Of a DNA stretch of 64,000 nt, positions 23,776 through 64,000 are shown one piece after another. The position numbers and the translations under genes were made by a program. Below the pieces are notes generated by a model. The model was not told the DNA's origin and searched no databases. It was given only the letters and a program-made list of their open reading frames with translations. The stretch comes from Hydractinia symbiolongicarpus (lineage: Eukaryota > Cnidaria > Hydrozoa > Anthoathecata > Hydractiniidae). The first letter of the stretch is position 1; each line of letters begins with the position of its first letter. The DNA is taken from positions 10,416,001 through 10,480,000 of the forward strand of contig NC_079882.1 of NCBI RefSeq assembly GCF_029227915.1. The letters run 5' to 3'.

Positions 23776-26700
23776 CTAAGCTTCAGTTTCGTTGATTAGT
23801 CTTTTCCTTCGTTTTTTATGCTTTTTAGCTTTTCTTTTCATCTTCAGTGCTATATCGTTTTCACTATAGCCGCATCTTTTCAATAACTTTGTATATCTCG
23901 ATCTAAGGTCTGCTAGCAAAATCAACTCAGTGTTGTTTCTTGCATCAGCTTTCTTTACATTTTCAATAAAGGCATCCTTGAAGTTCTGAACTAGGACATG
24001 CATTCGTTCATAAATATCAACAGAAGTTTCAGGTCGTGCTAAAATATAATAAATAAATAAAATTAATCAAATATGGCGATACATGCAGGCGTACAATATA
24101 AAAAAATATTTAAAAGAAAGAAACCTCTGCATGACACAATATTTTGGGATAAGCCTTAAACAAGAAAGAAATAAAAAATAACTAAGTAGAGTTATTTTGC
24201 GCATCAGTGATACACAACCTAGATTCGATCAGCGGTCCTTACAAAGTGGGAAGGGGCAGTACTGGAAACTACAGACAAACTAGACTACTTGCTGCATGAA
24301 ACACTTCGTATGTCTACATTACGGTTGTGTTCTTCAACGAAGTAGTTTTAACGCGATCAAAGATCTGCACAACCACACGCTTTACCGACGGCATGTTTAT
24401 GATAATGAAAAAATTTGTCAAAATACGCCAATTTCAGTCCGCGATAAATTTAAACCATTTTAAATTTCAAATCATAACCATCCGCAAAATCTGTGCTTAA
24501 TCTATTCCTTAATAATCGAATATAATTTTAATCAAGAGTTTTTTTTTTAAAATTTAACCCAAACCAAAGTACATCATTTCAGCCAATCGGCAAATTGAAT
24601 ACTCCCTTTTATCTCTAAAATATAAATAGCCATATTCTGCCGAAATTTTAGCCCGCAAAGATTTCCAATACGAAAGATTTCTTTCGCGAAAGTTTCTACG
24701 GCGAAGCTTGTTTTACGAAAGTTACGTTTAAAGGTTTCGTTAATTACACACGAAATGAAACTAACCTTCAGGGTGGACCTTTCTCTTTCTAATCTTCCGT
24801 ATGATTGAAACGATTATACCCAAGACAGTCAGACCAATCATCATCTTGCATGCCATTATAATACGAGATTTGAAAAAACTTTTCGACAACAATTCAACGT
24901 CTGTTTTTGGAGTAGGCGGCTGTGAAAAGAAACGGTAGTATGACTACATTAAATATTAGAAACCCTCCTATGATAATTCCCTTCAATGTAAGTTTAGAAA
25001 AAGAAAGAAAAAGCAACAACTGAGGAATATACATACCACAATACGGCCAACAATTTCATCCACCAACATTTGAATTTGTGGCTTCGCAGCTGTTAAATAA
25101 CTTTCAAAGTCACCAGAAATAACTTCTAGCCCTCCAGATAAAACCAGGCCATAGCCAGAATTAGAATCAATAATCTTATGGATTTTTAGACTCATGTTAG
25201 TTATTCTATCTATATAACTACCAGCAGTCACTGCATCAATGAGTCCAACCTTAACTCTTTTATCAGCTACTGCAGAAAGAACTTGAAGTGTATTCTTGTA
25301 CGCATCATTCACTATAGCATTTCTCATCACAGCTAAGTTATATTCCCTGGACAGAAAGATGGCGGCGGTCTAATGCGAAAGAAAATTATTCCACGTGTGA
25401 TACAGACGTCATTCTAATCAGCTCTCTAATTAACAGAAACTTCAAAAAGGGCACTAATTAACGGACAAAAAATATCGCACCAGCAAAACCACGGTCGAAT
25501 TATATGGAATACTCTCTAATAAGCGGATAGCAATTAGCGGAGAGTGATTTTCGCTATCAGAAATCCCTTAAATTAGAAATCGGGAAAGAACTTTTTTTCT
25601 AACTTTTTACACTTATCTTTGTGTGACTTTGTTGCATTGTATTTTTTTCAACCCCCTTTAGTTTTTATTGGTGACCATAAATATATTTTATAGGTATTTC
25701 CAGATTTGTCGATTTGAGCATTTTTCTATGCACCTACACAAATCTGAAAAAAAATGAATCTCTAAACCAAATTGTAGAAAGTTCTTTAAAATAAATGAAA
25801 ACTGAAACGTGTGCGCTACTTCGAGATTTTTAAGCCCTCTAGATTCATTTACGCAAAAATATACACGCACACAAAAGTGGAAAACACAACAAGCGTATTG
25901 CTGACAGTTTCAGATTGAATCCCGATTACTAAACCTAAGTCAAAAACACAATATGGTACTAATTATTAAAAGATTGTGTTCTCACCTTTTCTCCATACAA
26001 TTTGATGTCTTCCTGTTGATTATTAACCACCATACTAGACGTGGCAACTGACAGGAAAATGTTGACAATAATTAAACCCGTTAACACCCAAACTAGCACC
26101 ATGGCTTTCGACAGATTCGTAGAAGGAACAATGTCACCATATCTACAAAAGAAAATCAAATGTTACCTTGAAAGCAGACAACTCCTTTTAAACATTTGGA
26201 ATACGTTGGTATTATATAAGCAGTGTAATTAACCTACCCTACGGTTGTCATGGTTATTACAGCCATCCAAACACCTCCAAGAAAACCAAAAATAGGATTA
26301 TGTAATTGGATATCACTTTCTGTCGAACCTTGCTCCTAACGTATATAATCAAAATATATTTATTCACAGAAGCTCATTGTTACTTATCCAGAATAATAGA
26401 TTACAGGCTACAGATCCTGCGTTAATCCGCGTTAAGCGTTCCTTCTACTTTTAATTCACCAAATGAAAGTCCATAATAAAATGTTTTCCACAATGTTATT
26501 AGACATATTTCACGAAAGAAATAAATTATTATAGTGTGAATTTTATTTGTAATGGAAACGTCCTCGTGCTAAATACTCAATAAGTTAAAAAACTCTGATG
26601 TCAGAAAAAGCGCGAGAAATTAACGCCATTTTAACGCCAGATGGTAACCAAGCTTTAGGAATTATAACCAATCAGGCCGAAATAAAGATACTGAAAATCT

Positions 26701-27572
26701 ACACCCATTCAAATAAACACACAGGCACAGTACTTTAAAAAGTAGGAAAAATATTCCTCTGTAGTCTTTGATTGGACGTAAAGCCCTCGTTTGCTTATTT
26801 CTAAATTAGGAGACATTCTGTCCCTCTTTTAATCAAGGCAAGTAGCTCACTCCACACTAAGAAAAAAATGTAGGCATTTTATAAGCGCCCAGGGCGTTGA
26901 CTTACAGTATATGTCAACCTCGTTTACTAAAAATGTGTTGTATTTAGAAGCCGCGAAAATTGGTTAAAGCAACATAGTTTTTAACAAAAACTCTGTAAAG
27001 AAAGCGAAATTGTGACATTTAAAAACTACTTACGGTAAACCAATAAATTATTCCAACAACACAGGAGAAGAGAACACCAATTACAACAATGGGCCAAGAA
27101 GATAAAATCTTCATCAAAAGTGCTTTGAATTCAACGACTTTCACTTCTTCATAGTAAACAACCATAGCACTCCCTTGTGATAACGCCACTCCCAAATATG
27201 GATAATTCCCCATGAAATTTGGCACATCAAATTTCCCATAAATAGGAAAACTCATGTGGGTAACTTCCGAGATGGCGACACGAACAGCAATCTCGTTCAA
27301 CTTCGACGGGTCGTGACCAGTGTAGGATCTGTTAAAATGGATAGTCGGATAGCGATACGTTCTACATTCTGTGCAGACTTTTTTGATTATGCCGGATATA
27401 ACAGTTGGAAATATGCCAGATATAACATCAGTGATGGTATGAACTCCCATATAAGGTTGTAGTTGAAAATAATTAGTAAAAATGTCTTTCGGACATTTGC
27501 AAGTTCCTAAAAAAGTGTTTGTAAAAACTACTAGGAAGGACAACACATTTATGCAATAACTTTGCCACACAA
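23776..27572 (-). CDS. Channel module: iGluR-like ligand-binding core with K+ pore (C-terminal exons)
   Basis: Six exons: 27034-27572, 26238-26335, 25986-26142, 25037-25369, 24766-24919, 23776-24038 (stop TAG 23776-23778). The first has a hydrophobic segment (SYCINVLSFLVVFTNTFLG), then an S1-like lobe ending VALSQGSAMVVYYEE, then M1 (WPIVVIGVLFSCVVGIIYWFT). The pore is FGFLGGVWMAVITMTTVGYGDIVP, split here as VWMAVITM plus the K+ filter TTVGYGD, followed by inner helix LVWVLTGLIIVNIFLSV. Exon 25037-25369 is an S2-like lobe (VKVGLIDAVTAGSYIDRI, YGLVLSGG). Then comes a last helix (IIMACKMMIGLTVLGIIVSI) and a basic, Lys/Arg-rich cytoplasmic tail. The order S1-M1-P-M2-S2-M3 with TVGYGD is that of GluR0-type, K+-selective glutamate-receptor relatives, unlike animal AMPA/NMDA receptors. 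The ligand is unknown. Confidence 0.85.
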
Positions 27573-30500
27573 CTTTTCTTCGAAAAAGAATAAAGCGGTG
27601 AAAAAATTATATATACTACTCACGGGCGTATACTGTTTTCGAAGGACCGCTGCCAACATCTGAATACCCAAAAATGTTGATCACGTAAAGAGAATATGCT
27701 TTCAGGCCTTTAAGAGTATAGTCAAAAGTGAATTTATCCACTGAAACGGTATAAATCTTTTCGGAACCTTCCACGACATCAACATCAGCCGTTTGCAGCA
27801 GTTCATATGTTATTCTGTAACCTAACATGTTGCTATTTTCTTTTTCTTCTGGTATTGCTTTCCATGTCAGCATAACCGTGTCAGTCGTGTAACGGTCGTA
27901 AACTGTGACTTCAGGTGGAATGACACCAGGTGCTAAAATTAAAGACATAAAATGTTTGAAAGAAACTTAAATTAACACTATTATGAGCTATCGAGACGGA
28001 TAATATGCATAAATTTTGAAAATGTACCTGATGCAGGTGTCTTAAAAATGACCAAATCGCTCGGCCCACATCCTGCAATAGTGTAGCCACAGATTTCAAC
28101 CCAATACAATGTGAATGGTCTTAAGTTACGTAATGTCCTTAGCAACATTGATGCCGCGTTCGTGTCAACTACAGGGATATCGCTGTAGTAAGGTCTATAA
28201 GTGATTCTGTAACCAAGCAGGACTCCGGGAATTTGCGTCTGTGGAATGTCATCCCAGCTAAGGTAGACAGTATTGGCATCAAGAACTTGATGCATAAAAT
28301 TAGGCGGTTTGATCCAGGGCTCTGAAAAAAAATATGAAGGTAAATCATAAAATACGAGTTTCACATGTTTTTTTTTAAAATGTATAATTTAAAATTTACT
28401 CCTAATAAACCATCTCCCTTTGCCTAAACAACTGAAAAAAAAACTAAATCAACTTTTCTAGTTTATATTTTTACAAACAAATGTTTACACCAACATACCA
28501 GCTTCCTTTGTTTTTAATTGCAACTCCTCTGTAGCAATACCCCTACCAGCGATTGTGGCTGCAGCTAAACGCAGTCCATAAGTTGTTGCAGGTCGAAGGT
28601 CGCGTAGTACAACGCTAAGGTTAGCTGATCCCATAATTTGCCAAGCAGGTGGGTGTTCAGAAACAACACGGTAATGAATATAATATGCAGTAATGTTACC
28701 ATTTAAATTTTTCTCTGGTATCTTTGTCCATGATACATGGATTGTGAATGGTGTGTTTGAAACTGCAGAAAACGATGGCGGATCAAATGGAACTAAAACA
28801 TGAATGAATTATTGATAATTCCCAGTTTAAAGAGAAAATGGTAAAGAGATCTATATGGACAACCCCCCATACCATAATCACTTGTAACGCTGATCGGTTT
28901 GACAGGCATCGAGTTGATCATTCCAACATAATCTATCGCATGTTGAATTTTTATCAGCTCCAATGATGGAATAGGAAAAAGATGCAACGAGAAGTTTGCG
29001 TTCACACTTCCTTTCCTAAAGTAAACACACGTAAATTATCTAGTCAAGTGTCAATGTTGATCAAATAAGAATATTTGTCCATGCACAAACAGAAACACTT
29101 ACCAAAATGCGTTAACAAGAACCTGATAAGTCACAACATCTGGTTTGCTAACTTCATGAATCTAGAAAAAAAGGTAAAGTTAAGACTGAAAACAAACTAA
29201 AGAGCAGGTGTGAAATCACTTTCGAAAACAACAACGTCATAATACGTCAACAAAAAGCTACACGTACGGCATCTGTAAGACGTCGCGATAAATTCATATG
29301 ACGTTGTGAGTGGCTATACACCAGACGATATTGCCAAACCTCTTCTAATAGTTTGACCACAAATGTAACTGTGGACTCTATGAAAAATATCTGATTATTA
29401 GCATGAAGGTTATGATTTGCTAACGGGGGTAACAATTTTAAAATCAACATTTTTTCTAAAAACTTGTATCATTTATACAAACGATGTTTTTAAGCGACTG
29501 TATCTTACTCGCACAAGTGATATTTTCATTGCATTTTATCATTTCAATCCGATTGCCAGGACATGGCGCGCCATTGTAAAGAGGAGCAGGATTGGTGCAG
29601 TACCGCCTTTTTAACATTACACCGCCCAAGCCACAAGGTTGAGTGCATTCTTCGAATTCGTACCAGTTACTCCACTTACCGTTAACTTAAAAAAATGCAA
29701 TAAACTTAACAACAAAACGCACGAACAAACGAACGAACGAACGAACGAACGAACGAACGAACGAACGAACGAACGAACGAACGAACGAACGAACGAACGA
29801 ACGAACGAACGAACGAACGAACGAACGAACGAACGAACGAACGAACGAACGAACGAACGAACGAACGAACGAACGAACGAACGAACGAACGAACGAACGA
29901 ACGAACGAACGAACGAACGAACGAACGAACGAACGAACGAACGAACGAATTACACAATTAGGTAAAGAAACGCACTTGGACATGGATAAGGATTGCAACC
30001 ATTAATATAATCCACACTGATGCCACCTGCACATTCTTTCCCGCCATAACGTGGCGAAGGTGAGTCACATGACCTTGTGCGAATTCGTTTGCCATGTCCG
30101 CATGATTTGTCACATTCACTAAAATTTCCCCACGTACCCCACATGCCATCAACTAAAAGCACGAGTGAATCAATTGAATGTAAGAAAAAAGGATTGGAAG
30201 TGTTATTAACAAGCACTACGACAAGAAAAAGGAACAGTACAATGATAACTTGAACTCCCTTCGAATTTCCAGTAACCAAATCCCTAAAACTTTCACTAAA
30301 AATAGGGGCATTTTCAAAATAAAAACAGGCGGAAAGAATTTAATGATATTTGAGGAGTTTGGATCCAGAGTTGAACTATCTCATTACGGTTCTTTGTCGA
30401 AATAACCCCCTGAAAAACAAACTGCTAAGAAAAAATATAAACAAACTTTTCTTTCAGTAAATTTCAAAGTGCATGATGCATCAACAAGGTCAGATGTTTA

Positions 30501-54500: not shown

Positions 54501-57500
54501 AATAATTACACTAATATAGAACATATTTTTAAATGCCTTTTGTTTTCAGATGTATTACGCAAGTAGTAACATGGTACATACAAAAATGTTCCTTTTCAGT
54601 ATTTGATTTACCTGTAAATATACTACAGAATTTTAAATAAATTTCTTGGTACATCATTAGTAAGGCATAACAGATACTGCATTGGTTATTTTGCTAATAA
54701 TCATCCTTACCTTTATAGTGCAAGTGTGTGCTCACGTCATAGCATGGTCCAGTCATTTTGTCATGATCAGAACATCCGGTAAACAATTTCCAACCTTTGT
54801 TTTCTACATGTTGATCATGTTGTTCAGAGAATGTTATTGTGGCTAAAAGAAAATTTCAAAACATTTATTCTATTCTATATAATTGCAATACAGAGCGTAT
54901 ATAGTATGTGTTGTTGAGAAGAAAAAAACTACTTTGTTTTGTACTTAAAGTTTCATGCCGTTTACCTGACAATCCTCAGCAAAACAAGTGTTTACAATAA
55001 AGTTCGTTATAAAATTTGTTGTAGCGAAATTTATAACAAACTTTATTGTAATTTAATTTTAAATTTTATAATACATCTAAAAGAACATAAAGCAGAAAAA
55101 TGACTTCAGAAGTGCTTTAATGCTAGTTAAAGAACTGTCAAAGAAAAATATCCTGACATGTATGCAAACATTCAGTGATTTATTTTCCTTATATCAGGTG
55201 AAAGACAGAGAAACATGAGTTTTACACCGTGCATGCTTGCAGTCAGATTACACGAATTATTGGTTAGTCTAACAAAATCTAATTCAAAGGTAGAAATTAA
55301 ACTAATGACTAGGGTTTCTGCAATTGCATGAATTACCTACATCTTGTCAAATCAAACTTTAAATAATGACAAGTCCAAATATTATTTTAATACCTGCATT
55401 AGAAAGAATATCCCTGTCCATACTCACCATTGAAAAACACTTCTTCAATATCGTGTTTAGATAATGAATGTCTCCATATTTTCAATCCATGCATTTTTAA
55501 ATTGTAATAAGATACAAAGTACCGATAATATGGTGAACCAATACAGAGAAAGTTTGTTTCAAAAGGAACATCACTAGCATAGTTCTTAATTGCATCAGTT
55601 AGAGCTGCCACAGTGGCAACCAAAGTGGTATCTTTATACAACATCATTTCCTTAGATCGAACATTCAATGTTAATGTGAACAAGTTCCATACTTCATAGT
55701 CAGCTTCAATATATCCCATATAGGTTTGTTTATTGGTTTGTAGTGAAGCAATTAGTTTTAGTTTTTCACCGTAGGATATGGAAAACTGAAAACCTTTTCC
55801 AATTGTTGCATATTGTGTCTTATGCAAGCCACTGGATATAAAAGCAAATTCTGGATATGCTCTTTTGGGAACTAAAACAATAAAAAAGTAAAATTATATT
55901 ACAGATAGCAGACGCTATCTAATTGCTAGGCAAAATATTTTTACTACTGTTGTCAATTTGAAGATTTTTACTACCTTCACAAACGACACCAATAGGTCCA
56001 CCTGTATCACAGTTTCTAACATCTATGACACCATTATGGTTGGCTGACCAACAACCACTTGTTTCGGAGACTTTATATACATAGTCATAAGGTGAACCAT
56101 CTAGGGTAACAAAGTCACGAATCCCAAGCCAAAAATTATGAGGCACCTGCAACTCATCCACACTACGTATTAAAGATGTCATCAATAAAGTTTCAAGTCT
56201 ATTGTGAAAAACAGGTAAATTATATCCAAGCTTCTGACAGTATGATGCAGCATCTGCAAATTTCATTGACTCTGTGGCAAAATGATATTTTTGTTTTGCA
56301 ACTAAAAGTAAATAAAAGCAAAAATATATTCATATCAGAGACAATTTAAAAAATATAAGACCAACATAAAAAAAGAACGGAGGTGACAATGACGTTCAAG
56401 TGTGTCTAAAATTTTTGTGCCAAATATATCACATTATTAGTTTTTACATTTTACACTCACTACAAATGTACTAAAAAAATCCACAATAGCAGTTTTAGGC
56501 AAGAAGAAGTTTGCTTACAATTGTATGAAGTATTGTTTCAAACACATAATGCCCCTTTTAATTAAAAATTTGTTATTTGAAAAAGAAACATATATAATTC
56601 GAATCCAACTGCTGAAAATTGAAACTCTTTTCGAATTCAAAGGAGTCAGTGTGCAAAGATTGTCGGAGATGCAAGAAAGAATTATTACAGAAAACTTGAC
56701 GTGTCGAAAGTTCAAGACAACAAAGCATTTTGGAAAATCGTGAAACCAAATTTTTCTGAGAAAGTAATTAAGGAAAATATAACTTCGTTAGTCAAAGATG
56801 ATGCTGTTTTACAAAATAAATTTAAAATTGCAAATGTCATAAATGATTTTTTTGTAAATATCACAAAATCAATGGATATAAACAACATCCCTGAAAACAA
56901 TCCAGGAACAGCGGATGATTGCTCTCCTAGGGAGGTTAATGCAATTATTTTAAGTATCAAAGAACATCCGAGCATGAAAAATATCAAAGCGAAACTCTGC
57001 AAAAGTGCTGGCATGGACAAAATGAAATTCTGTCATGTTTCTTTTGAAAAATTAAACCTTTGTATTGGTTCTTCTCAAAGCTCACACAAATGTTTTTGTT
57101 AAGCAGTCGAGTCACTGTTCTAATGACTCAGTAGATAGGTGCATCTTTCCTGAGTCTTTGAAATTTGGGGATGTGTCTCCAATCTACAAAGCAAAGTCTA
57201 GGGTCTGCAAAGAAAATTATTAGCCAGTTAGTAAACTGCCAAACAAGGCTAAGGTTTTTAAATAAATTTTATTTGAAGAGATTAGTGAGTTCATGGAGGG
57301 GAAAATGTCCCCTATTTTGTCTGGTTTCAGGAAAGGATACAGTAGCCAACATGTTCTTTTAAATCTAATGTGCTTTCTTTAAGAAAAATTAGATTCCAAA
57401 AAGTGTGTTGCTGTCTTGCTCATGGATTTAAGCAAGGCTTTTGACTGTATTAGCCACAAACTGCTTATTGCTAAGCTTCATGCTTTTGGATTTTCTTCTA

Positions 57501-60500
57501 GTGCATTATCCTTTATTTGGAAGCAGCGCTTTCAGAGTTAGGTGTTAATGGGGTTTTTGGTAGAACATTTTCTGGTGTACTCTGGGGTCAATTTTGGGTC
57601 AGTAACTGTTAAACATATTTTCAAATGATTTTCTTTTTCAATATGAAGTTTGCCCTGCTCTGATATTCTAGTGCGTAACTATGCTGATGATAATACTTTT
57701 TGTGCATCAGCTGAAACTTTTAATGAAGTAAAATATATGTTAGAACAACTTTTTAGGTCAGTAGCTTTATGGTTTTCCGATAATGGCTTGCAATTAAACA
57801 CAAGCAAATGCGATTTTATGATATTCAGAAAACCAGAAAGTCCATAAATCCGGCATTTGAATTCAAATGGGGCAATTTTATCTACATTCAAATGTGTAAA
57901 GCTTCTTGGTATTAAATTTGAAAATCAGCTTACTTTTGCAGATCATATTAACACACTGTGCAAAAGAGCTAGCTGCAAATCTAATGCCCTGAAAAGAATT
58001 TCCTAGATTGTTGATAATAAACAGAAAAGTTTATTATATGCAACATTTATAGCATCCGAGTTCAATTATTGTCCTTTAGTCTGGGGATTTAATAGCAGGA
58101 AATCTATTTCAAAGGCGGATAGAGTTTTAAAAAGGGCAAGGTCTCAGTCCAAAGTGGAATCCACTCCTTCTATAAAAAGAATTCATATGCAACATTGTAG
58201 ACAATTACTGAAAGAGGTCTACAAGACGAAATAGAAAATGAATCCTTCCTGCATAGAATGTGTGTTTCAGTTTAGAAATGATACTTGGTATATTTTAAGG
58301 TCATCAAATGCTTTAGTTAGATCTAGCATAAAATCTTAAAAATATGGGCTGCAAACATTTGGATATATAGCCTCTCACGGAATTCTCTACCAGATGATAT
58401 GAAATCTGCAGTCTTTTGTTAACTTCTGTAGAGTTATAGGCGAATTTTTTTTTCCAATGCAAATGTCGGATCTGTGCAGAACACAAATTTAATTCGGGAT
58501 TTATTTAATTTTTGGTTTAAACAGTCCATTTTAATTAGACTTAATAGATTAACCACCTTCTCCAGTATAGTCTTTCATGTTTTCGGCCAAATTAAGCTTC
58601 CTGATTAACTCTACTAGAGTAATGGTATTTTATTATTATATTTTATTAGTATATTATAAATATTTTGTACATTATTGACTATAGATAAAGGAATCTATCC
58701 ATCCGTCTATATTTATCTACATGCACAAGTGATATAAAAATTATGCAGAATCAGCACTATTTTCGAGCTAAAGACCACAGTAAAAGAGTGAATTTCTCCT
58801 TGAAGGAAAAGAAGATCCCAGTTATAGGGTCGTCAGCAAAAAATAAGAGGCCTGGGACGAGCGAATGAGTGACATTTTGGCAAAAACATTTATGTTAGTC
58901 AATTCACCTATATTATTATCTATGCAATAACGAAGTTTGAATGTCAAAAGGTTGGTATTACTTAAATATGACGTCATAATTTATGCAACATAATTAAAAT
59001 CAGAATTCTTTAAATGTTAATATCTTGAGAACAAAAAGAGTTTTTTCAAAAAATTTAAAAAGACATGTTAACCAACTTTTTAAGCTCTATAATAGTCCAA
59101 CATCATTTTTTATACCTCGAGTTCCCTTTAACATCCTTAAACATAATTATGTAAATCAGAAATTTGATCCCTGCAAACTTACCCCTGCTTTTTCTGCAGT
59201 GATAATGTAACTTATGTAAATGTGAAAATAAAAAATAATTAGCAAATTACTACTGATTATTCAAAGATATAAGAAAATAAAATAAGCAGTTTTGTTGAAA
59301 ACATTGTTCATTTTACTTAAACGAAATGCTAACCCCTTATACTGTTAAGCCCTAGTTATACCTTTATCATGTTTCTCAAAGTATACAAATCTGAGATATA
59401 AATTTTCAGGCTGTTTATATACCTATACTTAACATAATAAAAAGCTAACACTCTTTATTGTTACTTAATGTTGTACCTGCCACCTTCTATTATGTTTATT
59501 GCTGGTAATTTCTAATTATGGAAAAAAATACCTGGAATTTACAGACATTTTTATGCTTTCCTCCACATAGCTAATAGTATTACAGTGGACGCTCTATAAC
59601 TTTTTATATGGGAAGTTGTTTTATTTCGGGTGTTTTTTATATATTGGCTATTTAGCTTTGATCTATGTTACTACAATCCATTGTGTAATTTGTATTTAAA
59701 AGAAACAGAGACCATGCTTGTGAAGTTTCAAAACAGATATACAGCCCTGTGATTCAAAAATACCGAAAGTCGGCACAATAGCATTTGGCGGCCAAAGATC
59801 GGCTAAATTTTGCAGGCCTACAATGATAATAAGGTTGGCAAAACTGATTTAAAGGCACTTCACAGTTCAACACGCTATATTCTTCCTTACTTTGGGGATT
59901 TCAGTTACAAAATTTATTGTAACTAATATCCTTTGTAGACTCGTTATTCTTCCTATTCATTGACGACTTTGATTTTGTTTTCCTTAGAGCGGCAAAATCT
60001 ATTTTTCAAGGTTCAAAATAATAAAGTGCGGATTCTTTGTAAGATTGAAATAGAGTGAAGTGGATTTTCTTTGTCTACAAGAAACGATGTACTAAAAACT
60101 TAAAGGTAATTTTTTTTCCCTTTTCTCAGGTCAGTTCTGCTGATTTTTTAAAAAGTTTTCTTGGCATGCCTATCTTGGTACAGATATAGGGCGGCATAAA
60201 AAGCTGTCACAGGGCAGTACAATGGATCTGATATTTTAATCAATCATGTGAGGTCCTTACACAAGTCATAATATCAAAACGGATAAATAATGCATTCGAT
60301 AAACAAAGTGCAATGCAATTGAGACATTTAACCTCATCTATAGTATCAAAACAGAGATAAACAGTGTTAACAAACAATACATGTATCATTTAATTCGCAT
60401 TGGAATCATCTAAGACACCTGACAAAATAACGTTTTTATGTAGTTCTAATTTAGTGGGTGCTGAAGTTATGACAGTTTGAGTAATACAGAGTCACTTATA

Positions 60501-63500
60501 AGAATAGGAAATTTTCACAGTGCAAGAGGAACCGCTAGAGTTGAAATTATATTTGTTTTAAATTACTATGATGATGACCTATCTATATAAAAGAATTCTT
60601 TTTTGACCTATTCCTTTCACTTGGATTGACTTAAAAAATCGTAAAAAAAATTGAAACATTTTTTGGTTAACCGTCTTTTGCACTATTTACCTGCACAAAA
60701 AATGCAGTTTGACTCATTTTGGTCTGAGGTGTGCCCTAGATCTCAGGTATATACAGTTAAATACATAGGACACTGAAATGATCCTAATTTACTGTATTGG
60801 TAAAAAGCGGTAACAATAGTAAAGTATTGCATCCAAATACAAAAAACTCTACATCAAATATTCTTCATTTCAAGGAAAGTAAAAAAACTATTTTTAATGA
60901 ATCAATATATAACAACTTCTTTGTGGAATACAAAAAATTATTAATACAATATTATTAACACTTCAGATATGGTGGGGCATTATAGTACACTTAATTTAAC
61001 ATATGGTGGGGCATTATAGTACACTTAATTTAACAATGTGTTGAGTCCAACCTGAGATGTCTAAATAAATTTTGTTTATCCCTAAAGCTGTTTTCCATTT
61101 AAGTAATTTAAGGGGGTGTAATTTACAAAAAGCAACATGGCAGTGGTTAATGAGTTGTTTTTACTGAAAAGAAAATACTTTTGGTAATGATCCCTTATAA
61201 AAACTTGAATAAAGAATAGATAGATGTTTGCATCTTGAATAATGAGTTGCTAACGTAAAATTAATTTTAATGCTTAAAAAAAGTACTTTAAACCATCACA
61301 AAGGTAAAAAAAAATTGTTTTAAAAACTTCTTGAATCCTATGTACTACCACTTTCACATTAGATTTGCCACTGCTGTAACTTAAATCTTCTCCCTATCTT
61401 TAATTTACAATTACAATTACAATTACAACTAGTCTTTGTTACACTTGCTCAACCATTTTTAAGTTCAAAACAAAACTGAAGTGTCACACATCACCCGCTT
61501 TAAAAAAAATTAAAAAAAGTTCACAACTTACATTCGATGTTGTAAACAGATTCATTTCTGGGAACATCATATGTAAAATTAAACTCGGAACAAGACGCTT
61601 CATTATCAATCAGGTCAACACTCTTGCCATGTATTGGACGTCCTCCCTCAGGATACAAACATTTGTTATTTTGATGTTTAATTATTCCATTTATGTGAAC
61701 TGAAAATGATTCTGTGCAAAACTGATTAAGAACAAACTTATCCACAGACCATGTTAAACAATGTCCAGTATTCACATGCACTAAATAGCCCCTTGTTGTG
61801 AAGTAAAACATGTCTTTACAGGATCTATCAAACTTCAGCTCTTCAGAAATAATTGATAGACATGAGCAAAATTTCGATGAACATTTTTCAACAATGTATA
61901 TACCTGGCATTTTCTTTCCTAAAAACAATGAAACATAAGCAAAAGACAATGGAAATAGAGCTTATGAAAATAACAACTAAATATATCACACAGATTATTA
62001 ACTGATAGTTATTTTCAACCAGTTTTAGAGGAAATCTGCAGTGCTGTATGGCCAAAAACCTTTATGACAAACTTTGGACAGCATGATATAACTTTAAACC
62101 TCATAGCAACCATAATGGTAGCTATAAATGTAAATTGTTATAACGTAACTACATACATACAGACTTAAAAATCAAGTTGCAGTAAATCTAAAATCTTGAA
62201 ACACTCTGCCAGAAAAACAGCAAACGTTGATAATTCAAATCATTGTTCGATTCTTGACAAAGAATAAACTTTGATTTAAACAATGTCCTAAAAAAATCTA
62301 TATTTTGTTTTTCTAATGTTTTGTTTTCTCTTTGCATTTGCATATGTATTTGAAAAATCCAAACAATAAAATTTAAATCAAACCTTTTCTATTTTTACAA
62401 CCTTGCCGCAAGTAAATCTTTAAAAAATAACCCTGGTTACAAACTGAAACAAAATAGCTATCAGTTAATAAATACAATATTAATTATTTATCTACGTCTT
62501 CCAAAAAATATTACCCTTAGTCAGTATATCAACATTTGGTACTATTTATTTGTATAAATAGACATAACAGTTTATATTGTATTAATATACCTTAATTCAT
62601 GATATTTTAGTATAATTTTAAATTTTGTCAAAGGCGAAAAAATGACAAAGTAAGGAGGACAGACGAATGATGACATTTGAAAAATTATAATAATGATTGA
62701 TTTGGTGAGGCAAAAAAGTACTGTGAAAACTTAATTTGGCTGTTTCATACTATCGAATATTTACACACCTTTAAAAAATAAAGGAAAACAGTACGCTCGG
62801 ATGCAAAAAGGGAAGAGAGACAATGTCCAATTTGATATTTTGAATTTCACAGTCATACACATTTGTAAGGACTTTTTTTAAGTTGTGTAATTTTGAGATG
62901 GTTGTGTAGATGAGAATAGTCATAGAGTATATATCGAATGATTTTAGACAACTATTGAAACAATGATATCAAACGTAGTATTCTGCTTAGGAATTTAGGT
63001 AACATTTTTGGTCGAAGAATATGACATGCATGCAACAGATCAATCACACTTGCTAACAATGGTATGGTTTACTGAATCTTTGGTTTTCAATTCAAACAAT
63101 ATAAAAGAACACAAGAAAGGTTAGCTTCCTTAATGTTCCGGAAGAGATTGGTAATTCAGACTGAGATAGATATTTCACCTCAAAAATGAAAAAAAAATGT
63201 CTGACCAAGAAAAGTATATGATAACAGGCAAGCTGGTAATCTCCCAATGGGTTTTCACAATTTCATTGCATTGTTGCTCTTGTTAGGACCTTAAACTTGC
63301 TGATGAACAGATAAAAATGCCGAAGGGTAATTATGTTACCAACAATGACAAAGAGTAAAATCTCCAAAAAGTTAACAAGGACTATAAATGATGTGTAAAA
63401 TAAGATAATGTACAATATGTGTACACCAATTTTTGCACAAGTGCGCAAGGAATTAGATTTTTTGTGAAACAAATTGTTTGTTTCTCAACTTTGCTTGAAT

Positions 63501-63996
63501 TAAGGCACTCACATATATACACAAAAAAGTTATTTGGTATAGTATGCTACCTTACCCCATCCAAGCACATCAACACAAACTTGACCATCATTATCAGCAT
63601 TTCCGGATGAGTAAAGATCTTCACTGTTCCATATGTGTATATTCTCATTTTCTTGAAAGTATGTTGGTTTACTCTGCATAATGATTTCTGATGAATTTTT
63701 ACTGTAGCCAGTTAGGGTAAAGGCCTTACTGCTAGTGAGAAATTCATTGTTAAATGGCAGCAGTGGTCCCAAAATAGTATTATTTTCTGTTGTGATATAA
63801 GTGGTTATTTCATTAGGGTAACTGTTACATCCAAAATTGCTATATGGTGCAGCTAGTGAGCATCTTATTTGTCCACTTTTATGTACCAGTTTAAATGCAG
63901 TTATTTGATAAAATGTTTGCGTGGAAAATACTCCTGAACTACCACCAAAACAAATAGGCTCACTATTCAATTTCAGCCATGAATCCTCCAGAGAAA
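23776..63996 (-). CDS. Giant multidomain receptor fused to an iGluR-like K+ channel (5' partial)
   Basis: Read as one minus-strand gene of about 45 exons and about 4,150 visible codons, continuing beyond the right edge: the first visible exon (63556-63996) has an acceptor AG at 63997-63998 and no start codon. From N to C: unnamed beta-rich domain, ricin-B-like, C-type lectin, LamG-like, PAN/WSC-like Cys modules, tectonin-like repeats, second C-type lectin, beta-sandwich exon, MAM, two LamG-like, SEA, nine FN3, TSP1, Cys-rich, three TSP1, SEA, three FN3, then the channel. Nearly all domain borders are phase-1 introns, and the reading frame carries through every junction except one LamG junction (44.1 to 42.6 kb), where two donors are possible. 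No internal exon offers a start ATG with a signal peptide; the hydrophobic segment at the channel's entry begins with a GTG-coded Val in the middle of an exon. Predicted topology: very large extracellular part, channel at the C terminus. That it is one transcript is inference; a split into two or more genes remains possible, notably across the long introns at 48-54 and 56-61.5 kb. Exons are given under the module entries. Confidence 0.6.
27624..28792 (-). CDS. Three FN3 domains next to the channel (exons of the giant gene)
   Basis: One domain per exon, all phase 1-1: 28499-28792, 28028-28321, 27624-27932. Each shows the FN3 pattern of an early Pro, a Trp in strand B (IHVSWTKI, VYLSWDDI, VMLTWKAI), a GYRITY-type Tyr in strand C, and the L-rich tyrosine corner (LRPATTYGLRL, LRPFTLYWVEI, LKAYSLYVINI), ending with a G-x-GPS-type loop in the last two. 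They form the stalk between the second SEA domain and the channel. Confidence 0.85.
28873..29419 (-). CDS. Second SEA domain (three exons of the giant gene)
   Basis: Exons 29268-29419, 29103-29161, 28873-29015, phases 1-0-2-1. The sequence has the SEA layout: a beta strand (IESTVTFVVKLLEE), helices (MNLSRRLTDAIHEVSK), strand VVTYQVLVNAFW and then KGSVNANFSLHL. GSV sits where SEA domains that self-cleave have their G-SVVV site, so autoproteolysis is possible though the motif is not the canonical one. Its place just outside the membrane-proximal FN3 stalk matches SEA domains in other adhesion receptors. Confidence 0.7.
29509..32793 (-). CDS. Four TSP1 repeats plus one Cys-rich domain (giant gene)
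   Basis: Exons 32623-32793 (TSP1), 31154-31480 (Cys-rich), 30653-30805, 29976-30152 and 29509-29685 (TSP1), all phase 1-1. TSP1 signatures are WTLWSEWGVCDQSCGNG, WALWGTCSVTCGGG, WGTWGNFSECDKSCGHG and WSNWYEFEECTQPCGLGG, with six-cysteine spacing. The W-x-x-W motifs could be C-mannosylated. The 327-nt Cys-rich exon begins GFYLAQPNVDCDETC and ends RRLCSCLDS. This LCxC-ended module is, as I recall, often found beside TSP1 in marine invertebrate proteins but has no name I know. The intron between the last two TSP1 exons carries a GAAC microsatellite. Confidence 0.88.
29728..29949. repeat. (GAAC)n microsatellite, about 54 units, in an intron
   Basis: A pure four-base repeat from about 29731 to 29948, preceded by degenerate units. 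Because four is not a multiple of three, the repeat reads through as NERT on one strand and SFVR on the other, which produces long artefactual open frames. It lies between exons 29976-30152 and 29509-29685 of the giant gene. Confidence 0.97.
30900..30940. repeat. ATTC microsatellite
   Basis: Short run of ATTC units with an interruption, in the intron between the Cys-rich and second TSP1 exons. Confidence 0.75.
31560..31820. repeat. Degenerate dispersed repeat, copy 1 (partner at 48355-48730)
   Basis: Both stretches run through the same series: 'ACAC(C/T)CAAA(C/T)CGTTATTTTTGT', an AT-rich tract, 'AAAATTTAATT', 'TACAAAGTT', a 'CATTT(A/G)T' plus 'TGTGGA' block, and an 'ACATGC..AACTCTCCAA' or 'ACATGCTCCAA' block. 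Divergence is strong. This copy lies in the intron between the first TSP1 and the Cys-rich exon. Confidence 0.45.
32891..37973 (-). CDS. Array of nine FN3 domains (giant gene)
   Basis: Eight exons, phase 1-1: 37680-37973, 37224-37589, 36494-36799, 35550-36287 (two domains), 35138-35434, 34675-34992, 33913-34233, 32891-33229. Each domain shows FN3 features: a strand-B Trp or equivalent (KVDWEF, INITWIP, VLKWEN, VTVTWQHV, LSIEWTNI), a tyrosine corner (LKPFTNYSVVI, LLPYTEYKFAV, LDNYTNYEIEI, LGLNVNYSVCV) and a GxG near the end (IGFGKAS, VGKGPYS, IGAGPSS, IGEGPKS). Many N-x-S/T sites suggest heavy glycosylation. Fibronectin III arrays usually act as spacers or adhesive stalks; no RGD was noticed. 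Confidence 0.85.
33332..33680. mobile_element. Palindromic MITE-like element in an FN3 intron
   Basis: The left arm starts 'TTCACTTTCGCCGAAAAAG' and the right arm ends 'CGAAAGTGAA'. Further in, 'ATGCCCGGT(G/A)CTGT' and 'TGTACCCAG' recur inverted, and the core arms carry 'AGATATAAAGAAAA' and 'TTAAAGTTTCATG' facing their complements. The whole is about 350 bp, long-armed, non-coding, and lies between exons 33913-34233 and 32891-33229. A related fragment ('GTACTTAAAGTTTCATGC') is at about 54948. Confidence 0.75.
33720..33835 (-). repeat. Repeat with CCGTGGAAAAATCCACGG palindrome and GACGGACGG tract
   Basis: Contains the perfect palindrome CCGTGGAAAAATCCACGG flavour (CCGTGG/CCACGG around AAAAAT), then a GACGGACGG tract next to 'TTTTGCGTGAC'. 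An inverted related copy lies at 36305-36378, and a half palindrome ('CCGTGGAAAAATCCAC') at about 879-895. Confidence 0.65.
36305..36378 (+). repeat. Inverted partner of the 33.7-kb GACGG repeat
   Basis: 'CCGTCCGTCCGTCACGCAA' followed by 'CATGGTAACC' is the reverse complement, with divergence, of the block at about 33765-33800. It sits in the intron between FN3 exons 36494-36799 and 35550-36287. Confidence 0.55.
38293..38470. repeat. 61-bp tandem repeat, three units
   Basis: 'CTATCTATGACAAA' recurs at 38331 and 38392, and as 'CTATGTATGACAAA' at 38453, giving a 61-bp period. Each unit also has 'CTCATACATCCTATGTACG' or a variant. It lies in the intron between the first SEA domain and the first FN3. 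Confidence 0.9.
38790..39441 (-). CDS. First SEA-like domain (three exons of the giant gene)
   Basis: Exons 39284-39441, 39069-39130, 38790-38935, phases 1-0-2-1, which is exactly the phase pattern of the second SEA domain at 28873-29419. The sequence has KYVEIRLLVEP, a helix with TTSEAKFLKRRFIAM, then LNDTFSKLTDHFVGAEIQEFQ and SLFFSYFGLENEAYFSEEAL. The site where GS would be cleaved reads FFSYFG, so this copy probably does not self-cleave. The shared intron pattern supports duplication of one ancestral SEA module within the gene. Confidence 0.6.
39680..41216 (-). CDS. LamG-like (concanavalin-type) domain with Cys-rich lead exon (giant gene)
   Basis: Exon 41163-41216 is only 54 nt and encodes GCICPENNKRFIYPSCGG; the acceptor used is the second of two adjacent AGs, because the first would break the cysteine pattern. 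Exon 39680-40303 then gives a jelly-roll domain: VSFDIQDQHIG, CQNGYTLGMWLLI, WNYFLIKFSSNWQEITLYVNGKE (split around W-x-x-I-x-L-Y-V-N-G) and KLYLRGTSKVCIDEFSV. The LYVNG and IDEF motifs are those of LamG_3/pentaxin-like domains. Confidence 0.75.
41359..44478 (-). CDS. LamG-like domain (three exons of the giant gene), one unresolved junction
   Basis: Exons about 44097 or 44120-44478, 42492-42638, 41359-41557. Content: YPFNSFKDFGLLGLDLTA, HRFSILLHLVAEN, IFKLGAEGSQNKLKFSL, then YVGLIYGDGFMKLYFNNE and FHGSLSCFQMHNKSLS, the run of a concanavalin-like fold. The strong donor at 44095-44096 (exon end 44097, phase 2) does not fit the next acceptor: the joined codon is followed at once by a stop. A weaker donor (GTTGGC, exon end 44120, phase 0) keeps the frame and the fold. 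A missed small exon is also possible. Confidence 0.65.
42086..42181. repeat. 25-bp tandem repeat, four units
   Basis: 'GCAATATATTAACCA' starts at 42091, 42116, 42141 and 42166, a strict 25-bp period with almost no divergence. It lies inside a LamG intron of the giant gene. Confidence 0.95.
43411..43617. mobile_element. Palindromic MITE-like element family B
   Basis: The left arm GGCTATTTATGAGAGACAGA... and the right arm ...CTCATGTAAATAGCC are inverted copies extending about 60 bp each, both including a 'GACGTTTGC' or 'GGCAAACGC' block. It is non-coding and about 207 bp. The end at 770-833 belongs to the same family. Confidence 0.7.
44560..45283 (-). CDS. MAM domain (two exons of the giant gene)
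   Basis: Exons 45033-45283 and 44560-44686, joined in phase 0. Typical MAM features are LSFWIYMFGPDVGTLFVW, a strand with KLIYRFKGSQGNYW followed by RQVWISIEGLGEFFQITF, and the closing GHIAIDHIQGF (consensus G.IAIDDI). MAM domains mediate adhesion in many receptors. Confidence 0.85.
45485..46015 (-). CDS. Beta-sandwich exon, possibly CBM96/DNRLRE-like (giant gene)
   Basis: A single phase 1-1 exon of 177 codons. Visible features are GIFQFQLNITQHSVIKNAFLKF-type alternating strands (a DNRLRE-like 'FD/FQL ... A-x-L-x-F' start), a run of amphipathic strands (HYALKIDLNQNS, SYPVDVTAHIEFV, HIVTFHIQMET), and TQLAVYYET at the end. The family call is tentative. Two cysteines and several N-glycosylation sites fit an extracellular location. 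Confidence 0.5.
46107..46439 (-). CDS. C-type lectin-like domain 2 (giant gene)
   Basis: A phase 1-1 exon of 111 codons. Landmarks are CQVMQADLVSNID (strand and helix after the first Cys), FTYIGLSSVDGNNFVW, FGWYSGEPNGASEMC with an EPN triplet that in Ca2+-dependent lectins favours mannose-type sugars, and VDVDCSSLSQYMCD at the end. The second Ca2+ site motif WND is replaced by VDVD, so sugar binding is possible but unproven. Confidence 0.85.
46976..48281 (-). CDS. Tectonin-like beta-propeller repeats (two exons of the giant gene)
   Basis: Exons 47940-48281 and 46976-47323, both phase 1-1. Repeats have the tectonin flavour: KWWYCIGHSGELYSK, LKAIKFDSNGSIWTLRTDGD, FAVTVTHIFCVKSN, and in the second exon DGIWVWRQFEEWQNI and HAFVDDNHILFIKSDDNSIF. 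There are too few blades for a closed six-bladed ring, so the propeller may be degenerate. The upstream junction (from 53940) crosses a 5.7-kb intron and gives a Tyr codon. Confidence 0.6.
48355..48730. repeat. Degenerate dispersed repeat, copy 2 (partner at 31560-31820)
   Basis: See the partner entry for shared blocks. It lies in the long intron upstream of the tectonin exons. Confidence 0.45.
49885..50115 (+). pseudogene. Endonuclease fragment of a non-LTR retrotransposon
   Basis: With frame breaks, the plus strand reads LIPGDFNMN, then PTHTMGGLM and VHYSDHNAISLLF. These match the GDFN, PTH-x-GG and SDH motifs of the EEP endonuclease domain of LINEs. Stops and a truncation show it is dead. 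It is antisense in an intron of the giant gene, about 6.5 kb from a dead reverse transcriptase, and may or may not come from the same insertion. Confidence 0.6.
50430..50920 (+). repeat. Dispersed repeat family A, copy 3
   Basis: Shares 'AATCAAACTTGGCACACTTA', 'TAGTACGT', 'TTTCTGAAAGCTAAATAAA', 'TTGCCTGGAAATCCG' and 'TTTGGCATGCAGGTGTCTAA' with copy 2 in the same order. The copy stops sooner than the others, after 'TAGATAAATATT'. Confidence 0.75.
52283..52882. mobile_element. 600-bp MITE with perfect 17-bp TIRs and TTAA flanks
   Basis: The left end is GGTTACTGTAAAGGAAA and the right end is its exact reverse complement TTTCCTTTACAGTAACC. Both ends are flanked by TTAA (52279-52282 and 52883-52886), the target duplicated by piggyBac-type transposases. 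The interior is AT-rich and non-coding. It is intact-looking, hence relatively young, and lies in an intron of the giant gene. Confidence 0.85.
53940..54842 (-). CDS. Two Cys-containing exons, PAN/WSC-like module (giant gene)
   Basis: Exons 54711-54842 (44 codons; KGWKLFTGCSDHDKMTGPCYD) and 53940-54194 (85 codons; YDCDWLPGNG, RSDCARTCKHQFELDG, NGATYKKDTKECYCF, YDSCFPP), both phase 1-1. The second has the C-x3-C ... NGATY ... CYC layout of Apple/PAN or WSC domains. I cannot decide between these. Confidence 0.6.
55428..55871 (-). CDS. LamG-like domain near the N-terminal part (giant gene)
   Basis: A phase 1-1 exon of 148 codons with a jelly-roll pattern: KGFQFSISYGEKLKLIAS, YEVWNLFTLTLNVRSKEM, MLYKDTTLVATV, NFLCIGSPYYRYFV and HGLKIWRHSLSKHDIEEVFF. 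The last strand, G-L-K-I-W and a helix starting 'L-S', is the end typical of concanavalin-like LamG_3 domains. Confidence 0.7.
55975..56301 (-). CDS. C-type lectin-like domain 1 (giant gene)
   Basis: A phase 1-1 exon of 109 codons with KFADAASYCQKLGYNLPVF, a helix with TSLIRSV, HNFWLGIRDF (the WIGL-like core), a variable loop lacking EPN or QPD, and GCWSANHNGVIDVRNCDTGGPIGVVCE at the end. Ca2+-binding residues are largely absent, so it may be a protein-binding lectin-like fold. Confidence 0.8.
56520..58640 (+). pseudogene. Degenerate LINE reverse transcriptase (Jockey/CR1-type)
   Basis: The plus strand carries, in several frames, VQDNKAFWKIVKPNFSEK (upstream linker), VSPIYKA, SGFRKGYSSQHVLL, LMDLSKAFDCISHKLLIAKL, NYADDNTFCASAETF with the YADD catalytic motif, and LGIKFENQLTFADHI plus FNYCPLVWGFNSR from the thumb region. 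Stops and frameshifts (for example near 57222, 57380 and 57540) show it is dead. It lies antisense in the intron between the ricin-like and C-type lectin exons of the giant gene, which is about 5.2 kb long. Confidence 0.88.
58641..61531. other. Intronic region between LINE relic and ricin-like exon
   Basis: AT-rich, with the 34-bp tandem duplication near 61 kb and a short ACAATT run near 61408-61428. No coding exon on either strand was recognised. Confidence 0.5.
60967..61034. repeat. 34-bp tandem duplication
   Basis: 'ATATGGTGGGGCATTATAGT' followed by 'ACACTTAATTTAAC' is repeated exactly once more, starting at 61001. It lies in a long intron. Confidence 0.95.
61532..61918 (-). CDS. Ricin-B-like beta-trefoil domain (giant gene)
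   Basis: A phase 1-1 exon of 129 codons. Features are CSCLSI, FYFTTRGYLVHVNTGHCLTW, VLNQFCTESFSV, INGIIKHQNNKCLYPEGG and VDLIDNEASCSEFNFTYD. The recurring 'G-x-I/L-x-H/V ... C-L' pattern is that of trefoil repeats in ricin-type carbohydrate-binding domains. Here it is a binding module only; there is no toxin catalytic chain. Confidence 0.65.
61919..63555. other. Intron between the first two visible exons of the giant gene
   Basis: AT-rich intron with no recognised repeat or gene. The open frame at 63263-63472 is hydrophobic AT-rich sequence without family resemblance. Confidence 0.5.
63556..63996 (-). CDS. Unnamed extracellular domain, first visible exon of the giant gene (5' partial)
   Basis: A phase 1-1 exon of 147 codons, preceded by an acceptor AG at the very edge of the window. 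It contains ICFGGSSGVFSTQ, FKLVHKSGQIRCS, YSNFGCN, ILGPLLPFNNEFL, FTLTGYSKNSSEI, IHIWNSEDLY and DNDGQVCVDVLGW. I recall related sequences ('LxGYxxNSPEL', 'IWYGEDL', 'DNxGxxCxDV') in many cnidarian secreted or receptor proteins, but I know no family name. The donor used is GTAAGG at 63555-63550, which keeps phase 1 into the ricin-like exon. Confidence 0.6.
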
Positions 63997-64000
63997 CTAA

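Follow-up and report, generated by a model that had tools for sequence, protein, structure and literature searches.

Does the minus strand of this window (64,000 nucleotides of Hydractinia symbiolongicarpus, contig NC_079882.1, positions 10,416,001 to 10,480,000) carry a single gene that joins a giant adhesion-type ectodomain to a K+-filter channel of the glutamate-receptor kind, or are adjacent genes misread as one? Sequence comparison indicates one gene, whose predicted product is a membrane protein in a single chain, some 4,800 residues long (length by the related protein P0017), and it confirms the fusion. Three FN3 modules connect a GluR0-like channel to the predicted ectodomain of about 4,350 residues, which contains discoidin, C-type lectin, LamG-like, MAM, SEA-like, FN3 and TSP1 modules. 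The modelled channel shows, in order, a two-lobed S1/S2 core, M1, a TTVGYGD pore loop, M2, an extra M4 helix and a basic tail.

Gene Model and Reading Frame

The model was built by a purpose-written gene finder (codon usage and splice signals) and then curated by hand. From 64000 to 23776 it showed 45 exons over a span of 40,225 bases, with 12,405 coding bases, 4,134 residues and a sole, terminal stop codon. A preliminary description of the locus had claimed about 45 in-frame minus-strand exons running to a TTVGYGD channel, and one protein of more than 4,000 residues; both claims held, and P0017 (4,841 residues in full) matched across all 44 junctions. The window edge removes about 700 N-terminal residues, corresponding to P0017 residues 1–707. 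Phase 1 was found for 33 of the 44 introns (phase 0, 7; phase 2, 4), which is the expectation for shuffled extracellular modules.

P0017 lies on a contig of 14,678 bases. Its alignment with the window model begins at P0017 residue 708, continues to the end of the protein and showed 3,824 identical columns of 4,138, with 7 gap columns; a gap within about five columns of a junction was seen at 0/44 junctions. P0017 needs 14,523 coding bases, whereas the window uses more than 40 kb for most of the same protein; its contig is therefore without these introns and was read as an assembled transcript. P0017 comes from a close relative or variant, not necessarily of the same species. A transcript break had been considered possible within the introns at 48–54 or 56–61 kb, and P0017 crosses both. 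It also crosses the junction of the FN3 exon with the channel exon in one frame, but the start proposed for the channel exon (27572) had to be moved to 27506, where P0017 fits. Exon ends 46015, 39680 and 30152 were placed with P0017 known, and the remaining ends were fixed earlier.

At a single setting, the uncurated 51-exon chain of the gene finder scored 822.6 on the real strand and 112.5 on the opposite strand, and first-order Markov resamples scored 54.9–71.0 in 8/8 cases; the controls carried the grafted real first 700 bases, which let a chain start, and codon usage was learned from the candidate exons, a bias in favour of the real strand. The P0017 comparison therefore weighs more than the finder scores. 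Extra small exons obtained with a low intron penalty were dropped, as 15/15 peptides tried were not in P0017.

Fused and Stand-Alone Relatives

Protein searches were divided into three length classes (queries of 594, 1,921 and 4,139 residues), with the channel as the scored region. The 594-residue class, where only the 7,995 candidates with most common words were scored, gave 12 matches: six of the cnidarian channel group, three GluR0-like and three plant K+ channel proteins. The 1,921-residue class gave four matches, two of the fused kind (P0013 and P0014 of Rhopilema esculentum) and two weak ones carrying PF00027 (P0015 and P0016). All four matches in the 4,139-residue class were of the fused kind: P0017, P0018 (4,833 residues, H. 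symbiolongicarpus LOC130655923), P0019 (2,641 residues, Nematostella vectensis LOC5515526) and P0020 (5,535 residues, Dendronephthya gigantea LOC114531613). Sought in other proteins, the fusion was thus also seen in Rhopilema, Nematostella, Dendronephthya and the Hydractinia protein P0018, which aligned to P0017 almost end to end at 31% identity. P0017 begins with MANGAIADTQ, without an evident signal peptide, and the start of P0018 is hydrophobic; the 5′ end of P0017 is probably incomplete. For P0014 (LOC135684291), Pfam listed CUB in two stretches and no lectin. Its S2 is cut short and M4 is missing, perhaps as an isoform or through a faulty model.

K+-filter channels of the same group also occur as stand-alone proteins of 481–533 residues without the ectodomain (P0001 of Pocillopora, and P0002–P0006). 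A hydrophobic leader was seen by eye at the start of P0001, P0003, P0005 and P0006. Fused forms on file came from Hydrozoa, Scyphozoa, Hexacorallia and Octocorallia; from these sequences, the fusion is therefore probably older than the split of the four groups. Non-detection outside Cnidaria in these searches is weak evidence. In a 15-row tree, from which P0014 was excluded owing to its incomplete S2, the fused rows clustered at 72/52, which is not significant, and the tree does not separate a single fusion from several.

Channel Core

Pfam was run on ten pieces of an earlier curated version of the model. This hidden Markov model scan of the joined translation, suggested in the preliminary description, gave Lectin_C, MAM, fn3, TSP_1, Ion_trans_2 and Ion_trans above the curated cut-offs. 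The channel exon (27034–27506; all gene features are on the minus strand) contained the TCKCP junction, the S1 lobe and M1 (27034–27090), as assigned by P0017 comparison, alignment, hydropathy and predicted structure. The K+ filter TTVGYGD (26133–26248) is split by the intron 26237–26143 and lies in an Ion_trans_2 match of 46.8 bits (cut-off 22.5). The filter end and M2 (26046–26102) followed at 25986–26142, by P0017 comparison and hydropathy. The S2 lobe at 25037–25369, with an invariant Asp at 25235–25237, was placed by alignments and predicted structure, and the S2 end with the M4-like helix (24806–24862) at 24766–24919 by predicted structure and hydropathy. The last exon (23776–24038), supported by gene finder, P0017 and predicted structure, held a basic helical tail, cytoplasmic by topology, and the stop codon 23776–23778.

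In the hydropathy profile, the C-terminal part contained a pore loop together with three hydrophobic helices. The M4 after S2 appeared as a hydropathy peak at residues 4016–4034 and as a helix in the predicted model. A periplasmic-binding-protein-like S1/S2 core interrupted by a pore, as in the superfamily of GluR0-type receptors and ionotropic glutamate receptors (iGluRs), was present in the predicted structure, and the T-x-V-G-Y-G filter within a two-helix pore is the sequence mark of a K+-selective pore. The lobes were well predicted: when they were divided into 23 blocks of ten residues, 19 had a predicted local distance difference test (pLDDT) score of 75–89. The core alignment had 23 invariant columns, and 11 of them fell in the lobes (assigned by hand). 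Lig_chan exceeded its cut-off (30.8) in P0019 (36.2 bits) and P0001 (38.7 bits), and 1ii5, listed for GluR0, was the first VIA-align row for the core. ANF_receptor was not listed by Pfam for the window pieces, P0017, P0018, P0019, P0013 or P0014. TVGYGD was intact in the window, P0017, P0018, P0019, P0020 and P0014; in otherwise similar channels, THGYGD was seen in P0013 (Rhopilema) and TVGFGD in P0005. The helical tail could be aligned among the window, P0017 and Hydractinia P0018.

Ligand Pocket

We take the S1 Arg to bind the ligand α-carboxylate and the S2 acidic residue to be the amino-group site. The pocket alignment covered 11 cnidarian-group rows (window, P0001, P0003, P0005, P0006, P0013, P0014 and P0017–P0020) and three GluR0-like comparators (P0007, P0009, P0010), bacterial by our reading of sequence and Pfam. 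The S1 column was Arg in 3/3 comparators and in 0/11 cnidarian-group rows (F, F, Y, Y, Y, S, Y, F, F, Y, K), in a divergent part of the alignment where some columns may be offset. A motif scan for TxxRE/TxxxRE in S1 gave the same division, with 3/3 comparators and 0/11 group rows. The S2 Asp was kept in 3/3 comparators and in all 10 group rows that could be scored, P0014 being gapped at this position. As the S1 Arg is gone, the sequences make a plain amino acid unlikely as the ligand of the cnidarian-group core.

SEA-Like Stalk

The stretch that separates the final TSP1 module from the channel had one SEA-like and three FN3 modules, ending in TCxCP, in the window, P0017, P0018, P0013, P0014 and P0019, and the stalk of P0020 had FN3 modules alone, ending in TCRCH. 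Pfam recognised SEA in three of the five SEA rows (P0017, P0018, P0013, P0014, P0019), with a best E of 2.2e-05. A GS[VI]xA motif occupied corresponding alignment positions in P0018 (GSVIA), P0013 (GSIVA), P0019 (GSVMA) and, as GSVNA, in both the window and P0017. When the SEA rows were used as a profile against the PDB, three matches resulted, none significant: 1ivz (E 0.14), Lmo0753 (0.7) and ADGRF1 (0.89). The first of these we take to be a SEA domain and the second not. ADGRF1 has a SEA domain, and the self-cleaving SEA motif in adhesion G-protein-coupled receptors (GPCRs) is GSVVV or GSIVA, according to passages of PMC6954182.

Proposed Function and Alternative Explanations

The preliminary description suggested that the protein could link matrix, glycan or cell contact to K+ flux. 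We judge this reading supported: fusion, module order, filter, predicted fold and loss of the S1 Arg come from sequence and prediction, and tetramer, selectivity, cleavage and gating are what we infer. Four chains would form a K+-selective pore. With the S1 Arg missing, the clamshell of S1 and S2 would be set not by glutamate but by binding or pull on the ectodomain. Cleavage might occur at GS[VI]xA in the SEA-like module that precedes the final three FN3 modules, leaving the outer part to be held or shed; a cut-and-hold arrangement of this kind would parallel adhesion GPCRs and has been proposed likewise for polycystin-1. Opening would give K+ efflux and might make the cell less excitable when contact is made or lost. 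For the whole proposal, a K+-type channel controlled via an adhesion ectodomain, we consider the chances about even. Well short of that, and tentative, is the further suggestion of a separate class of animal channels, adhesion-gated K+ channels of long standing in Cnidaria. Their ectodomain, several thousand residues long and possibly self-cleaved, would bind matrix or glycan, and this binding, not a transmitter, would drive a GluR0-type clamshell to hyperpolarise the cell on contact.

Several observations weigh against control by the ectodomain or against parts of the assignment. The stand-alone channels indicate that the core can exist without an ectodomain. As far as their names tell, the named relatives are gene predictions. 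SEA was below its cut-off in the window and not recognised in the P0017 row, the alignment showed no GS site in P0014 and no SEA module in P0020, and the predicted SEA-like model was unusable (pLDDT 41.8). Lig_chan stayed under 30.8 in the window (26.6), P0017 (23.1) and P0013 (29.1) and was not listed by Pfam for P0018 and P0014. In the structure comparison, the GluR0 core was tied with ordinary amino-acid-binding proteins. The best 60 of 262 rows of a PDB profile search with cnidarian-group rows only matched the pore alone; with the three GluR0-like comparators added, 2pyy came top (E 2.9e-16), so the link of the core to GluR0 in the PDB leans on the comparators.

The retained S1/S2 fold and S2 Asp also suit a K+ channel that responds to some small soluble ligand, though not a plain α-amino acid, with the ectodomain serving just to place it at matrix or cell contacts, and the stand-alone relatives should gate anyway. 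However, the S1 Arg is absent in 11/11 rows and no ligand is known; we rate this explanation as rather unlikely, if one to be taken seriously. A degenerate pocket and the alignable tail would fit a pore under intracellular control or one that never closes, with the ectodomain as an anchor and the core as a structural relic. The well-predicted lobes and the share of invariant columns within them speak against such a relic, and we find it decidedly improbable. Replacement of TVGYGD in P0013 and P0005 could point to an adhesion receptor that no longer conducts, but the filter is intact in the window and in the five other proteins named above, which makes loss of conduction very improbable.

Two or more adjacent genes misread as one are hardly credible, and we rejected this explanation since P0017 spans every junction in one frame. 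The long introns at 48–54 and 56–61 kb, the latter with a retroelement remnant, might suggest separate genes, but a limited scan for a signal-peptide-like start with a phase-1 donor gave eight candidates, none starting in these two introns; three of the eight begin in the exon 61918–61532. The first Met in the open frame of the channel exon falls inside the S1 lobe. Separate genes would also require P0017 to be misassembled, which five more fused proteins from named cnidarians make unlikely.

Modules of the Ectodomain and Neighbouring Elements

Among the modules named in the preliminary description, lectin, MAM, TSP1 and FN3 were recovered above the Pfam cut-offs and LamG was not. In the window pieces, Laminin_G_3, SEA and Lig_chan were all under cut-off, and 10 fn3 and 4 TSP_1 stretches individually passed E 0.5. 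The edge-cut first exon (63556–64000) matched no Pfam family and had 85.8% identity to P0017 across the exon; the exon 61532–61918 showed no family above cut-off. The following intron (61531–56302) contains a retroelement-like remnant on the plus strand (56623–58234; RVT_1 22.6 bits at 57647–57844, under the cut-off of 29.6). The first C-type lectin exon (55975–56301) gave Lectin_C at 23.3 bits (cut-off 22.6), and a LamG/ConA-like exon (55428–55871) gave Laminin_G_3 at 17.3 bits, under the cut-off of 27.6. No Pfam family was found for two exons at 53940–54842 (54711–54842, 53940–54194), two at 46976–48281 (47940–48281, 46976–47323) and the exon 45485–46015, whose start was taken from P0017. 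The second C-type lectin exon (46107–46439) scored 37.9 bits for Lectin_C.

A MAM module (44560–45283; exons 45033–45283, 44560–44686) scored 50.3 bits (cut-off 26.4). The LamG-like module at 41359–44478 (exons 44097–44478, 42492–42612, 41359–41557, matching P0017) reached 14 bits and the LamG-like exon 39680–40303, its end taken from P0017, 17.5 bits, both for Laminin_G_3 and under cut-off. A short Cys-rich exon between them (41163–41282) was labelled EGF-like by eye. The first SEA-like module (38790–39441; exons 39284–39441, 39069–39130, 38790–38935) gave 19.3 bits, under the cut-off of 26.4. About nine FN3 modules followed in eight exons (32891–37973): 37680–37973, 37224–37589, 36494–36799, 35550–36287 (two modules), 35138–35434, 34675–34992, 33913–34233 and 32891–33229. 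Pfam listed seven fn3 stretches here, and the other two modules were assigned by length and phase.

TSP1 module 1 (32623–32793, TSP_1 by Pfam) was followed by a Cys-containing module (31154–31480), also present in Rhopilema P0013 and Hydractinia P0018. TSP1 modules 2–4 (29509–30805, TSP_1; exons 30653–30805, 29976–30152, 29509–29685, the start 30152 taken from P0017) had 98.0, 98.3 and 91.5% identity to P0017. An AACG array of 58.5 copies (29716–29949) lies inside the intron 29975–29686 between TSP1 exons; it is intronic although open in several frames as TNER/FVRS repeats. The second SEA-like module, with GSVNA (28873–29377; exons 29268–29377, 29103–29161, 28873–29015), was assigned by alignment with the relatives and by Pfam on their SEA rows, and the three membrane-proximal FN3 modules (27624–28792; exons 28499–28792, 28028–28321, 27624–27932) gave three fn3 stretches. 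Pieces of a class C GPCR gene were seen on the plus strand at 18182–20577, in two open frames (ANF_receptor 64.9 bits, 7tm_3 68.5 and 81.6 bits); its 3′ end faces that of the giant gene.

Significance and Comparison with Known Systems

Transmitter and adhesion receptors are usually distinct molecules; here a GluR0-like core of the K+ type ends an ectodomain of matrix type, and the animals concerned, from four cnidarian groups, have simple nervous systems. If gated by contact, the protein would couple adhesion directly to membrane voltage, which could be tested in Hydractinia and Nematostella, for which predicted genes are on file, and it would widen the known history of the K+-filter receptor type. 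In the surveyed passages, K+-filter receptors in animals are described only from a rotifer. No such protein was described in titles and abstract openings of the literature among the matches listed, and the covered passages of two animal iGluR surveys (PMC6307864, PMC12226733) hold no report of cnidarian K+-filter receptors; a word search of the main text of PMC6307864 gave zero occurrences of GYG, GluR0, 'K+ select' and potassium. Databases list the named relatives as uncharacterized proteins; their sequences are thus already public, but the class, as far as found, is apparently undescribed.

GluR0 (Synechocystis Slr1257) and the bacterial-type GluR0-like channels are alike in the two-lobed core around a two-helix TVGYGD pore, and P0007, P0009 and P0010 appeared in the same match list as the cnidarian channel group. 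Compared with GluR0, the cnidarian protein adds an M4-like helix and a tail after S2 and a giant ectodomain ahead, and it lacks the pocket Arg. Metazoan iGluR classes (AKDF, NMDA, epsilon, lambda) share the S1/S2 core, pore loop and M4. Unlike the cnidarian fused protein, metazoan iGluRs begin with an ANF-type domain, and their pores are mostly non-selective. In the rotifer Adineta vaga, AvGluR1 (Janovjak 2011, as presented in PMC12332018 and PMC11479355 and referenced in PMC12226733) is described with ordinary iGluR architecture; it has no adhesion ectodomain, and its core was solved with glutamate (4io2).

Adhesion GPCRs with SEA (GPR110, GPR116, GPR126) resemble the fused protein in a very long modular ectodomain; their SEA domain with a GSVVV or GSIVA motif (passages of PMC6954182) would have its counterpart in the SEA-like module and its candidate GS[VI]xA site. 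They have seven helices and no pore. The polycystin-1/polycystin-2 complex is alike in a giant C-type-lectin ectodomain that is cleaved outside the membrane and controls a cation channel; according to passages of PMC7728438, the channel opens when ectodomain fragments carrying the C-type lectin are applied, and its authors propose that cleavage generates such fragments. Compared by description, polycystin differs in an 11-helix membrane part, GPS cleavage and two subunits. GPS, PLAT and PKD families were not listed by Pfam for the window pieces. The polycystin channel fold also differs from the GluR0-like fold. By analogy, polycystin is the nearest working parallel to the proposed control of the channel by its ectodomain.
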